NCBI RefSeq assembly: GCF_000211475.1 | Contig: NC_015474.1 | Coordinates: 1,612,001 to 1,676,000, forward strand | Source of the DNA: Pyrococcus sp. NA2 | Lineage (GTDB): Archaea > Methanobacteriota_B > Thermococci > Thermococcales > Thermococcaceae | Direction of reading: 5' to 3' | Length of the DNA stretch: 64,000 bases | Part shown: in pieces, positions 48,238-53,212 of the stretch | How positions within the stretch are numbered: the first letter of the stretch is position 1 | How the letters are laid out: every line of letters begins with the position of its first letter | Program-made: the position numbers and the translations under genes | The notes under the pieces: model-generated | Database searches by the model: none | Seen by the model: only the letters and a program-made list of their open reading frames with translations | Told to the model about the DNA's origin: nothing

Positions 48238-48987
48238 GTGAAAATTGGAAAAGTTGAGAGTTATATTCATGAAAGACTTGAAAAGAAAAAGCTTCACTTC
48301 GTTCTAATAGATCCCGATGACACATCTCCAGAACTTGCTGGTAAGTTATCAAAACTTTGCGAAGAGATTGGAATTGATGCAATAATGGTTGGAGGTTCAA
48401 CGGGAGCCGAAGGGGAAATACTTGATGATGTAGTTAAGGCAATAAAGGAGAACTCATCCCTGCCAGTTATACTGTTTCCTGGATCTCATGTAGGAGTAAG
48501 CAAATATGCCGATGCAATATTTTTCATGAGCCTTCTAAACTCCAGAAATCCATTCTTCATAACAGGAGCTCAAGCTCTTGGGGCCTTTACAGTAAAGAAA
48601 TACGGCATAGAACCAATTCCAATGGCCTATATAATAGTTGAACCGGGAGAAACCGTTGGATGGGTAGGAGATGCAAAGCCAATTCCTAGACATAAGCCAA
48701 AACTTGCAGCAGCCTATGCACTGGCAGGTCAGTACCTTGGAATGAGACTCGTCTACTTAGAGGCCGGTAGCGGAGCTCCCGAGCCAGTCCCTCCGGAAAT
48801 GGTCAGGACTGTAAAGCTAACAATAGAGATTCCCTTAATAGTAGGGGGAGGAATAAAGACTGGAGAGCAGGTAAGAGAATTAACTAGGGCAGGCGCAGAT
48901 ATAATAGTAACTGGAACGGCAATAGAATCAGCAAGAAGTTTAGAAGAGGCAAGAAAAAGGCTTGAAAACTTAAGAAAGGGCCTATAA
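48238..48987 (+). CDS. Geranylgeranylglyceryl phosphate synthase
   Basis: 249 aa. PcrB/GGGPS TIM barrel: VLIDPDDTSPE, VGGSTGAEG, LFPGSHVGVSKYADA, YLEAGSGAPEPVP and VGGGIKTGEQ. Makes the first ether bond of archaeal lipids between sn-glycerol-1-phosphate and GGPP. GTG 48238 is preferred, as GGTGAG precedes it (GTG 48229 would include that site). It overlaps the convergent PINA gene by 6 bp. Confidence 0.95.
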   Translation: MKIGKVESYIHERLEKKKLHFVLIDPDDTSPELAGKLSKLCEEIGIDAIMVGGSTGAEGEILDDVVKAIKENSSLPVILFPGSHVGVSKYADAIFFMSLLNSRNPFFITGAQALGAFTVKKYGIEPIPMAYIIVEPGETVGWVGDAKPIPRHKPKLAAAYALAGQYLGMRLVYLEAGSGAPEPVPPEMVRTVKLTIEIPLIVGGGIKTGEQVRELTRAGADIIVTGTAIESARSLEEARKRLENLRKGL

Positions 48988-50787
48988 TGAGGCCCAAATT
49001 TCACTGCCTTCCCTTAAATATCTCTCAAGCAATTTTCCAACAGGAGAGTTCTTCGAGACCTTAACAACTCCCTTCTTACTTGGTGTTGCCGTAAAGACAT
49101 AGTCATTCCCAGCGTAGAATCTCAGGGGTTTCCTTGAGTAGTCAGGGGAGACCCTGAGGACTATACTCTTCTTCTTTTCTTCAACTTCAACTGGAATCCT
49201 TTCTTTGGCTTCAGGAGCTTTTTCGCTTAGATTTTTAACTTCTATGCTTATTCCAAGCCTCTTTTCCAATTCCTGTATTCTCTTACCCTTCTTTCCTATT
49301 ATTAGAGGAATGTCAAATTCATCAGCATAGACAATGGCCTTATGAGGACTAACTATCTCGACCTCAGTGTAGACATCCGGCAGGAACTTCTGAATCTCTT
49401 GCTTCAATTTCTTTTCCGCTAGTTTCAATGCAGGTGCCTTCTCTTCCTTCTTAATTGGAACAACGCTTATCTCCTCTCCAAATGTGTAGATCTCATACTC
49501 AAGTTGGCCTGTTTCAAAATCCCTGACCTCTATTACTGGCCTAGCAAGGTCTTCCTCCTTCATTCCAGTGGGCACTTTGACCTTGTACTCCAACGTTAAA
49601 ACCTTGGCCACCCTACCTCCCTTGATAAATATTACGGTATCCACTATCTGGGGTATCATTCCCAGTTCAACCCTCCCAATGAACCTCTGAATTGCATCTA
49701 TTGGTTTAGTTGCGTGAACAACTCCAACCATTCCAACACCAGCTAATCTCAGGTCTGTGTAAATTAGGAAATCGCTCGTCTTCCTCATCTCATCAAAGAT
49801 CGTGTAGTCGGGTCTTACAAGTAATAACACATCTCCTGTCTTCTCCATGCTTCCATTCAGAGCTGTATATTGAGTTATCTCCTCTCTAACTTGTAGATCC
49901 CTGGGCTTCTCCATCGTCTTAACTATCCTTCCCATGCTTGCGTACCACTCTGCCAATGCTTGAACGAATGTAGTCTTTCCGGCTCCCGGAGGTCCAGCAA
50001 CCAAAATTCCTTCGGCCTTCTCTTTAAGTCTCTCAAGAAGCTTCTCGCTTAAATTGTAATCCTCTATGCTCAATTTCTTTATTGGTCTAACGGCGGTTAT
50101 CTCGATTCTATCCGAGAACGGGGGTCTTGCTATCACTATCCTATAATTTCTAAGTTGAACTACAGTAGCTCCTGGCTCATCTAACTCTATGAAGCTCTCA
50201 GGATCTCTCCTTGCCCTTTCAACGATATCGTCTGCTATCTCCTCTACCTCCTCCTCAGTTAAAGGTTCTTCCCTTATGGGAACTAGTCTCCACTCCCCAG
50301 GCTTACCCTTCTTTGCCAAAGGCTTAACCCCTGCTTTAAGATGTACACTCATCGTTTCGTCATCAAAGAAATCTTCAAGTCTAGTCTTTGGTTCCCTCTT
50401 GCTTTCTAGGTATATTACCTCTATTCCCTTCGCTATAGCTATGTCCCTTTGAACTTGATCACCTGTAATTAGTGTCGCATTGAGTTCCCTTGCAACTTCT
50501 CTCACCATATGATCAATTTCTCCAGCTTTGGCTCTCTTTATTTGCCACAACTCAGGCCTCTCACCGTAGAACTCCAGTAGTATCTTTCCTTTGTTGGCAA
50601 GCTCTCTGAGCTTTTTAAGCTCCTCTAGTCCAGTGTGACCAATTGCTTTACCTTCATTCGCCTGATGCTCTATCTCAGCTACCACAGCCTCAGGAACAAC
50701 GACCTTAACTTTCTCCTTTATCCTCTTTAAATACTGAGTGAGCCTCCCATCAACTATCACGCTTGTGTCAGGCACTATAACTCTCAC
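48982..50787 (-). CDS. PIN-domain ATPase PINA (PIN + PilT-like ATPase + KH)
   Basis: 601 aa. Residues 1-140 are a PIN nuclease-like domain (VIVPDTSVIVDGR, LITGDQVQRDIA). Residues about 235-440 form a PilT/VirB11-like secretion-type ATPase with Walker A GPPGAGKTT (about 263-271) and FDEMRKTSD. Residues about 490-520 hold a KH-like RNA/DNA-binding motif (IGKKGKRIQELEKRLG). This is the architecture of archaeal PINA, reported as a hexameric Holliday junction branch-migration ATPase working with Hjc and Hjm. ATG 50787 follows GGTGAGAG. Confidence 0.9.
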   Translation of the reverse strand: MRVIVPDTSVIVDGRLTQYLKRIKEKVKVVVPEAVVAEIEHQANEGKAIGHTGLEELKKLRELANKGKILLEFYGERPELWQIKRAKAGEIDHMVREVARELNATLITGDQVQRDIAIAKGIEVIYLESKREPKTRLEDFFDDETMSVHLKAGVKPLAKKGKPGEWRLVPIREEPLTEEEVEEIADDIVERARRDPESFIELDEPGATVVQLRNYRIVIARPPFSDRIEITAVRPIKKLSIEDYNLSEKLLERLKEKAEGILVAGPPGAGKTTFVQALAEWYASMGRIVKTMEKPRDLQVREEITQYTALNGSMEKTGDVLLLVRPDYTIFDEMRKTSDFLIYTDLRLAGVGMVGVVHATKPIDAIQRFIGRVELGMIPQIVDTVIFIKGGRVAKVLTLEYKVKVPTGMKEEDLARPVIEVRDFETGQLEYEIYTFGEEISVVPIKKEEKAPALKLAEKKLKQEIQKFLPDVYTEVEIVSPHKAIVYADEFDIPLIIGKKGKRIQELEKRLGISIEVKNLSEKAPEAKERIPVEVEEKKKSIVLRVSPDYSRKPLRFYAGNDYVFTATPSKKGVVKVSKNSPVGKLLERYLREGSEIWASL

Positions 50788-50882
50788 CTTCTCTCACCTC
50801 CTACGAACAATGAAATGCTTGCTTTTTAACCATTAGCCAAATCATTTTAAATACATTTAGTAATTAAAATATGGTGAGCAGG

Positions 50883-51476
50883 ATGACACTCGTAGAGATC
50901 ATTAGAGATGCTAAAAAGGCCGAAGAAAGAGCATTAAAGGAGTATAAGAAGATAATAAACGAGTTAAAATCTCCAGAAGAGGCAGAATTAAAGAGAGTGT
51001 TCCTAAGGTTGGCAGTTGATAAGATCTTCCACAAAGAGTTAATGGAGGCCATAGAGAGAGCATACAAAGAGGCTACAAAACTGTTAAGAGAGCACATTGA
51101 ACCTTACTATCCAGAGTTAAGTCCAATAAAGGAATCGATAAATCAGCTTGAAGAGGGAACAATATTAATTCCAGGAGTTCCAGCGTTGGTTATCTCCCAA
51201 GCCCTTGGAACACTGGGCTACAGAATACCACCCGAGGATATACTCGAGGAGATAATGAACGTACCCCCCGATGCATCAATAGTTCCAAAAGACAAGACAG
51301 AGACAATCAAAGACAAGCTCAGTGAAATTCTGAGGGATCAGGAAGAGATGCAAAGGAATTATGAAAAGCTTGAAGATCTCGCTAAGCATCCGACAATAAG
51401 GGATATTGCACGCTCGTTGCTTTACAATGAAGCCCAACATAGGGCAATTTTAAAGAGTATCTCAAAAAAGATTTAA
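50883..51476 (+). CDS. Ferritin-like/rubrerythrin-like helical protein
   Basis: 197 aa, nearly all helical. Two halves each contain acidic helix motifs: EERALKEYKKI with later FHKELMEAIERA, and EEMQRNYEKL with NEAQHRAIL (ExxH as in rubrerythrin). This suggests a four-helix diiron protein, but the ligands are not complete enough to be sure. The middle (ILIPGVPALVISQALG) is hydrophobic and may pack in the core. ATG 50883 follows GGTGAGC. Confidence 0.55.
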   Translation: MTLVEIIRDAKKAEERALKEYKKIINELKSPEEAELKRVFLRLAVDKIFHKELMEAIERAYKEATKLLREHIEPYYPELSPIKESINQLEEGTILIPGVPALVISQALGTLGYRIPPEDILEEIMNVPPDASIVPKDKTETIKDKLSEILRDQEEMQRNYEKLEDLAKHPTIRDIARSLLYNEAQHRAILKSISKKI

Positions 51477-51484: not shown

Positions 51485-51567
51485 AACTTATCCCTTCTAA
51501 TAAGATAAGAACAACTAGTGTTCAGTAAAGATTTTAAATGTATATGTCTAGGACAATAAGGATACTT

Positions 51568-52755
51568 ATGAAACTGAGGACTGGGATACCAACGCTTGAT
51601 GCAATTTTAGAGGGTGGATTTGAAAAAGAGTGCAACATTGCATTAGTTGGTGGTATAGACAACGACTACATACTTCTGGCACATCAGTTGATATCTTCCT
51701 TCCTATCTCAGGGGAGTAGAGTATTGTTAGTCGAACTTCGTCAGGATCCTTCATCTTTAGTTAGATGGCTTAAACAATATGGAATAAACTATGAAGGATA
51801 CATAAAAGAGGGTCAATTGAAGATACTAGATGGATTCACAAATCTTTATTCGCCTTCTAGTGTTAGTGGTCCCGATATCCTTCCAAATCCCTTAGATTTG
51901 GGAATAACAACCGCTATAATAAGGGATAATGTGAGTAGGGAAATGTACGACATTGTGGTTTTCGATGATGTAACTTCTCTCTATGCACTACAAACGGATT
52001 ATAGGGCTTACATAAGAGTTATTGTTAGGCTAATAAACTCAATTAGGAAGCTGGGTGCATCTTCCCTTGTAGCCGTTAACTCCGATGTTCTCTCAATTAA
52101 AGATCTTTCCATGGTGTTAATGCCTTTTGAGTATCTAATCGAGGTTAAGGAAAATGTAATTAGGATAAAAAGGTCTTTCTCTTTTATCAGCGTTCCAGGA
52201 ATCCCATACGTAAAGACGAGCAAGGGAATAGTTCCCACGGGAGATGTTTTAAAAGATGCGAATACCCTTAGAGAGTCCCTTACAGTGGAGAACGAGGGAA
52301 CAATCAAACTTGGAATGGCTAGGGTTCAAATAGTTTCGGAATCCTCAGAGAGATCACTAATTGAATATGTTTACCAATTCCTTGGAGCCGAGAAGGGGAG
52401 AGAGTTCCTCTATGGCTGGGGAAGATATGAGTTAGAAAGAGTCAATGTAACACCAATAAAGGGTTCAATAAAGGAACTTAAGGCACTTTTAGAGGATATG
52501 TTTGAGGTAACCAAGACAACTGGCGGAGGAAACCTAAGAATAGTTGAAATAACTGAGAACACGATAGTGATTGAAGGCAAAGATTTATTCCCTAAGTTTG
52601 AGAAGTTCCCCTATCCAGTTCACATTCACTATGCTGGATCAATGGCAAAGTTATTGGAGAAGGCGACTGGAGATAAGTGGATCGGAGATGAAGTTGAATG
52701 CGAAAGCCAATCCGATGAGAGATGCGTATTCGTCCTTAAGAGGATTCAAGAGTAA
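51568..52755 (+). CDS. RecA/KaiC-like domain without Walker A fused to a V4R sensor domain
   Basis: 395 aa. Residues 1-225 start KLRTGIPTLDAILEGGFEK as in RadA/KaiC-like ATPases, but the P-loop is replaced by LVGGIDNDYILLAHQL and lacks GKT; the Walker B-like YDIVVFDDVTSLY is kept. Residues about 260-395 are a V4R (4-vinyl reductase) small-molecule-binding domain, ending in a Cys pair VECESQSDERCVF. A ligand or metal sensor coupled to a non-hydrolysing RecA fold is likely. The start is ATG 51568 (AAGGATA before it); ATG 51538 is possible. Confidence 0.7.
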   Translation: MKLRTGIPTLDAILEGGFEKECNIALVGGIDNDYILLAHQLISSFLSQGSRVLLVELRQDPSSLVRWLKQYGINYEGYIKEGQLKILDGFTNLYSPSSVSGPDILPNPLDLGITTAIIRDNVSREMYDIVVFDDVTSLYALQTDYRAYIRVIVRLINSIRKLGASSLVAVNSDVLSIKDLSMVLMPFEYLIEVKENVIRIKRSFSFISVPGIPYVKTSKGIVPTGDVLKDANTLRESLTVENEGTIKLGMARVQIVSESSERSLIEYVYQFLGAEKGREFLYGWGRYELERVNVTPIKGSIKELKALLEDMFEVTKTTGGGNLRIVEITENTIVIEGKDLFPKFEKFPYPVHIHYAGSMAKLLEKATGDKWIGDEVECESQSDERCVFVLKRIQE

Positions 52756-53212
52756 GGTTGAGAGATTTTCCAATTTCTCCAATGGGGGTATTAACCCCAA
52801 ACCTACATACGAGATTCCAAGAAACGGCTGAGGTTCTGTTCTCGACTATGACTTTGAGAAGTTTCACGTCAAGTGAAGAATAGGTAACAGTGTAGTTAAG
52901 GGTCAACTCTATCTCTTGCCCAGGTTTTAGGGTTACGTTCTCAAGATTAACATCACCCATATAAGTTCCATTCATGTACAGAGAGAACCTCAAGATGTCA
53001 ACCCTAACATCCTTGTCAACGGGATTCTTGATTTTAACAGAAACATCTAGAACTGCATGATCAAGTTCAAGCTTAGACACCGTGACATTGATAAACTTAA
53101 CCTCAAGATTTTTAACATCCCCAATCATGAGATTCCCAACGACAAAGTACATGGCAGCTATTATTATCGTCCCAAATAAGAGGAATAATGGAACCAAAAA
53201 AGTCTTCCTCAT
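52736..53212 (-). CDS. LEA14/WHy-domain membrane-anchored protein
   Basis: 158 aa. Residues 4-28 are a membrane anchor. The rest is a beta sandwich with LDVSVKIKNPVDKDVRVDILRFSLYMNG (in parts), the signature N-P pattern of LEA14/WHy domains found in stress proteins, exposed on the outer side. Overlaps the convergent RecA/V4R gene by 20 bp; stop adjoins the DUF2258 gene region. Confidence 0.8.
   Translation of the reverse strand: MRKTFLVPLFLLFGTIIIAAMYFVVGNLMIGDVKNLEVKFINVTVSKLELDHAVLDVSVKIKNPVDKDVRVDILRFSLYMNGTYMGDVNLENVTLKPGQEIELTLNYTVTYSSLDVKLLKVIVENRTSAVSWNLVCRFGVNTPIGEIGKSLNLTLESS

Follow-up and report, generated by a model that had tools for sequence, protein, structure and literature searches.

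A KaiC-family domain without Walker A joined to a V4R domain in Pyrococcus sp. NA2: a putative sensor protein of the Thermococcaceae

The analysed window is a stretch of 64,000 nucleotides from the genome of Pyrococcus sp. NA2, which consists of one contig of 1,861,320 bases. An ORF on the plus strand of the window (51568-52755) encodes a protein of 395 residues, here called the KaiC-V4R protein, in which Pfam detects a KaiC domain (PF06745, residues 4-168, 53.1 bits, cut-off 26.6) and a V4R domain (PF02830, residues 333-391, 47.5 bits, cut-off 31). Both domains were detected in all 19 family members scanned (E 0.01). An extra in-frame ATG at 51538 might serve as a longer start, but ATG 51568 was preferred because the equivalent codon begins most of the orthologs of the genus. 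The KaiC-family RecA-fold domain spans approximately residues 1-205 (51568-52182). The V4R/MopR-type sensory domain extends beyond the stretch recognised by Pfam and fills approximately residues 222-395 (52231-52752); these two domains therefore make up almost the whole protein.

The gene located just upstream on the same strand (50871-51476) encodes what is, judging from profile matches to designed diiron bundles, at most a four-helix/diiron-like bundle, a borderline ferritin-like protein. Its designation as a rubrerythrin proper was rejected, since the PF02915 match is only borderline: the four members of the genus that were scanned, starting with the gene of the window, scored 23.7, 25.7, 20.5 and 21.5 bits against a cut-off of 22.8. 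The minus strand carries a gene for a LEA_2-like protein (52736-53212, 25.9 bits versus 25.4), which shares 20 bases with the KaiC-V4R gene at the 3' ends of the two. On the same strand, an ORF (48982-50787) encodes a single protein bearing a PIN domain, a type II/IV secretion-type ATPase and a KH domain.

The KaiC half was analysed in an alignment of 40 orthologs, i.e. the protein of the window and 39 proteins from other loci (pieces of a broken copy in genome G029 were excluded). The Walker A motif GxxxxGK[ST] occurs in none of the 40. Its place is taken here by GGIDNDYI (residues 28-35; 51649-51672), in which Asp33 occupies the position of the last P-loop glycine. The position of the P-loop Lys is held by N, H or Y (24, 14 and 2 sequences, respectively) and that of the Ser/Thr by V, I, R or L (16, 13, 7 and 4). 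As the motif is missing from the whole set, its loss is fixed throughout the family and not an accident of the Pyrococcus sp. NA2 genome. Searching at the DNA level with a pattern for the P-loop proved too unspecific to be of use, a control pattern having given two thirds as many matches.

The Walker B Asp and the second Asp that follows it (D133 and D134, at the end of the strand comprising residues 130-134; 51955-51969) are invariant in all 40 orthologs, and so are G28, D33, D88 and D110, whereas the strand-2 acid position varies (26 E, 10 D, 2 T, 1 N, 1 A). The invariance of these six residues suggests that the degenerate site is under selection and is not decaying. However, D88, D110 and D133 are also Asp in KaiC chains, so the conservation is partly family-wide and does not prove that a new function has arisen. 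Residues that are the same in at least 39 of the 40 sequences are more frequent in the catalytic-edge loops than in the rest of the KaiC domain (13/60 versus 13/145, Fisher p 0.02), but the comparison with the opposite-edge loops alone (5/42) revealed no significant enrichment (p 0.29); in both tests the loops were assigned by hand from the predicted secondary structure.

An AF2 model of the complete protein, built with 13 sequences, reached a mean pLDDT of 88.6 and a pTM of 0.72. Its first 226-252 residues resemble PH0284 (PDB 2dr3; VIA Z 26.6, rmsd 2.9, 226 residues aligned), and the same region resembles KaiC with a VIA Z of about 25. The earlier note, made from the letters of this stretch, had described a RadA/KaiC start and a Walker B-like strand without Walker A. 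The loss of Walker A and the presence of the Walker B strand were borne out by the alignment, and the structure prediction that the note had proposed as a check retained the KaiC fold in the N-terminal half; the lack of a RecA fold, which the note had named as a refutation, was thus not observed.

The V4R half, modelled alone (pLDDT 84.7, pTM 0.77), matches TRAPPC3 of Thorarchaeota (VIA Z 15.2), the sensory domains of MopR (5kbi, 14.5), DmpR (14.3) and PoxR (14.1), mouse Bet3 (13.2) and MJ1460 (12.4). Its similarity to MopR is also apparent from a sequence profile, which matches over nearly the whole half (1.2e-6). All 40 orthologs preserve a predicted metal site, H352-x22-E375-x2-C378-x7-C386 (52621-52725). 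The aligned sequences read C-x22-E-x2-C-x7-C in MopR and H-x22-E-x2-C-x7-C in MJ1460, an archaeal V4R protein (2osd/2oso) which, unlike the KaiC-V4R protein, is a chain of 163 residues without a KaiC domain. In DmpR the zinc ligands are Cys151, Glu172, Cys177 and Cys185 (PMC7264223); the spacing of the Cys residues agrees with that found here, while the Glu, as printed in that source, lies two residues off. The site of three Cys and one Glu typical of MopR and DmpR does not occur in its exact form in the 40 orthologs: the first zinc Cys is replaced by His352, and the Glu and two Cys are kept. Domain context differs as well, since in DmpR the V4R domain is followed by an AAA+ and a DNA-binding domain (PMC7264223). 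The phenol of MopR is anchored by a His and a Trp (PMC10715001), for which no obvious invariant equivalent was noticed among the orthologs of the KaiC-V4R protein.

A further relative is MsvR, a redox regulator of methanogens, whose V4R domain has the two later Cys in common with the KaiC-V4R protein. The MsvR Cys at the corresponding positions are 206, 232 and 240, and the C206A substitution makes DNA binding indifferent to the redox state, according to PMC3729527. In contrast to MsvR, which bears an HTH and this redox-critical first Cys, the KaiC-V4R protein has a KaiC N-terminal half and His352 in 40/40 sequences. Neither an N-terminal HTH nor three V4R Cys were found in it, and the MsvR model, matching weakly at residues 302-389 (E 0.0028), gives 17.4 bits versus 220. 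Because the position of the redox Cys is occupied by His, a zinc-stabilised ligand pocket, as read from the sequence, would be a better interpretation of this half than an MsvR-like redox switch. The Cys pair to which the earlier note had drawn attention is an invariant feature (C378/C386). That note had also described a RecA-like domain devoid of its P-loop and fused to a V4R sensor, an architecture supported by sequence, conservation and predicted structure.

A profile of the full-length family matched (E < 1e-150) in 40 of the 115 genomes of the phylum, all of them Thermococcaceae. The gene is present in 9/9 genomes of the genus to which the window belongs and is patchy in genus g2. An alignment-based scan of genome contigs recovered 13 loci, each with Thermococcus, Thermococci or Thermococcaceae in its title; the scan with a single protein gave no matches. 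At 1e-15 the full-length profile matched in none of 23 genomes of one other phylum, which is weak evidence given that the search had no positive control, and in 8 of 250 genomes of another phylum, through the KaiC part alone. Broken copies with stops or a short frame were observed in one further genome, of Thermococcus type, at G029:C100 (pieces and a fragment) and at locus L046, and result from either decay or assembly error.

PH0284, PH0186 (2zts) and cyanobacterial KaiC share with the KaiC-V4R protein the RecA/KaiC fold, the N-terminal TGIxxLDxxLxGG and the Walker B Asp. PH0284 and PH0186 are stand-alone, single-domain archaeal KaiC-like ATPases without V4R, and their homologs in Pyrococcus sp. 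NA2, unlike the protein described here, have an intact P-loop. PF06745 finds eight matches in this genome, including the KaiC-V4R gene; the other seven ORFs, inspected by eye, contain the P-loop, and presumably include RadA- and RadB-like proteins. The genome therefore offers possible partners for the KaiC-V4R protein, as would be required if, as the earlier note suggested, it regulated a true RecA-family ATPase by forming mixed complexes, but none of their genes lies near it. The KaiC-V4R protein is the only one in the genome with a V4R match over the cut-off. Elsewhere on the contig, a 219-aa ORF weakly related to KaiC and devoid of a P-loop (G000:C1:855900-857000, L133) could be a second protein with an inactivated KaiC domain, and two tandem KaiC-family genes, each with a P-loop, are located at G000:C1:628400-630300 (L128).

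Inactivated KaiC (iKaiC) is a published class of domains in archaeal signalling proteins that includes MEDS and DUF835 (PMC5847659). As presented there, MEDS (PF14417) and DUF835 (PF05763) are derived from KaiC, are thought to be dead as ATPases and occur in sensing and signalling proteins (PMC5847659). On the KaiC-V4R protein MEDS matches weakly and below the cut-off (E 0.0013, 19 bits versus 29.8); such a match appeared in three of the 19 family members scanned, and DUF835 is absent among the matches listed for the protein. We tentatively place the protein among the iKaiC proteins on the basis of the ATPase motif loss in 40/40 sequences and the presence of a V4R domain, from which its inactivity and signalling role are what we infer. 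It differs from known iKaiC proteins in that the fusion partner is V4R and there is no REC, PAS or kinase domain. As the category has already been published (PMC5847659), the KaiC-V4R protein would represent a lineage-specific variant of it. No description of a KaiC-V4R fusion was found in the titles, abstract openings and selected passages covered by our literature search.

The genomic context of the gene varies. The 40 neighbourhoods, grouped by hand, fall into sets of 8, 19, 8, 3 and 2 (some neighbour lists contain spurious antisense ORFs, and the Thermococcus-type neighbours are approximate). In the first set, confined to the genus of the window (8/9 genomes), the borderline ferritin-like four-helix gene lies just upstream on the same strand, separated from the KaiC-V4R ORF by 45-95 bases. 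The set of 19 lies in a ribosomal/NDK region, and in the second set of eight a phosphoribosyltransferase-HTH gene stands beside the KaiC-V4R gene. The set of three, Thermococcus-type, has a peroxiredoxin nearby, accompanied in two cases by a flavodiiron protein and in one by a true ferritin (154.9 bits); the Pfam scans covered the ferritin of L081 and the peroxiredoxin and flavodiiron protein of L087, the other such neighbours being their cluster mates. The last two neighbourhoods are located elsewhere. No conserved operon partner was found over the 40 neighbourhoods, and in none of them does a KaiC-family gene, as checked against the eight KaiC-related ORFs, adjoin the KaiC-V4R gene.

The ferritin-like gene, widespread in Thermococcaceae, was found in 50 of the 115 genomes (hand tally, E 1e-17), 28 with and 22 without the KaiC-V4R gene, and outside the genus of the window it never adjoins the latter. 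Since it also occurs in genomes lacking the KaiC-V4R gene, the link seen within the genus may be plain synteny, and the ferritin-like protein is a possible but unproven functional neighbour. On the other hand, the Pyrococcus sp. NA2 genome has nine PF02915 matches and one PF00578 match, so that ferritin-like or peroxiredoxin neighbours should be uncommon by chance.

These neighbours bear on the suggestion that the protein is a sensor of oxygen, peroxide or iron stress, a Thermococcaceae counterpart of MsvR in which an iKaiC output replaces the DNA-binding domain. Ferritin-like, ferritin, peroxiredoxin or flavodiiron genes in 11/40 neighbourhoods, together with the weak MsvR match, speak for such a role. 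However, the 11 cases amount to two separate contexts, the category was chosen after the neighbours had been seen, and the remaining 29 neighbourhoods, which were partly scanned, have no such gene among the recognised neighbours. Moreover, the Cys equivalent to the redox Cys C206 of MsvR (PMC3729527) is His in the entire family, and the 22 genomes with an unaccompanied ferritin-like gene, as well as its absence from the vicinity outside the genus, weaken the association further. We consider this role unlikely. It is more doubtful still whether the protein senses two inputs, with an acidic pocket of D33, D88, D110, D133 and D134 binding a metal ion, a cationic ligand or a peptide tail but no nucleotide triphosphate: the five Asp are invariant and the catalytic edge is enriched in invariant residues relative to the rest of the domain, but three of the five are also found in KaiC chains. 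A combination of both ideas, in which a dead KaiC ring-type domain with an acidic non-nucleotide pocket and a V4R domain would form a Thermococcaceae O2/iron-stress sensor that replaces an active subunit in KaiC-type complexes, seems to us quite improbable.

Retention of the Walker B Asp and the close KaiC fold of the model could also be taken to mean that the protein is a KaiC-family ATPase still binding or hydrolysing ATP through a non-canonical P-loop. Against this stands a loop that in all orthologs lacks the Lys and the Ser/Thr and carries an Asp in the phosphate loop, and to this the variability of the strand-2 acid may be added; we give this explanation little credence. Least plausible of all is that the P-loop was lost under relaxed selection in a decaying gene, as the patchiness in genus g2, the broken copies in G029 and the short L046 frame might indicate. 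None of the 40 compared orthologs is truncated; they share one loop pattern and an invariant V4R motif, and this conservation largely refutes decay.

The most likely role of the KaiC-V4R protein is that of a sensor or an adaptor, not that of a motor. As a whole, we propose, with a probability of about one half, that it is a Thermococcaceae-specific fusion of an iKaiC domain with a V4R sensor, inactive towards ATP and signalling to a partner in trans. Such a protein would not hydrolyse ATP. The fold of its V4R half would be organised around a metal ion with a structural role (probably zinc), and the molecule sensed by this half would be small and probably hydrophobic. The dead KaiC half would serve as a protein-protein module that passes the state of the V4R half to the partner, which could most readily be an active KaiC-family ATPase of the genome or further copies of the KaiC-V4R protein itself.

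A role as signalling hubs of archaea has been proposed for proteins of the KaiC family (PMC5847659). The KaiC-V4R protein raises the question of how a dead KaiC domain deals with an active one, whether by joining, blocking or recruiting it, and, being compact, derived from a hyperthermophile and present in every genome of its genus, constitutes a tractable case in which this question may be addressed.
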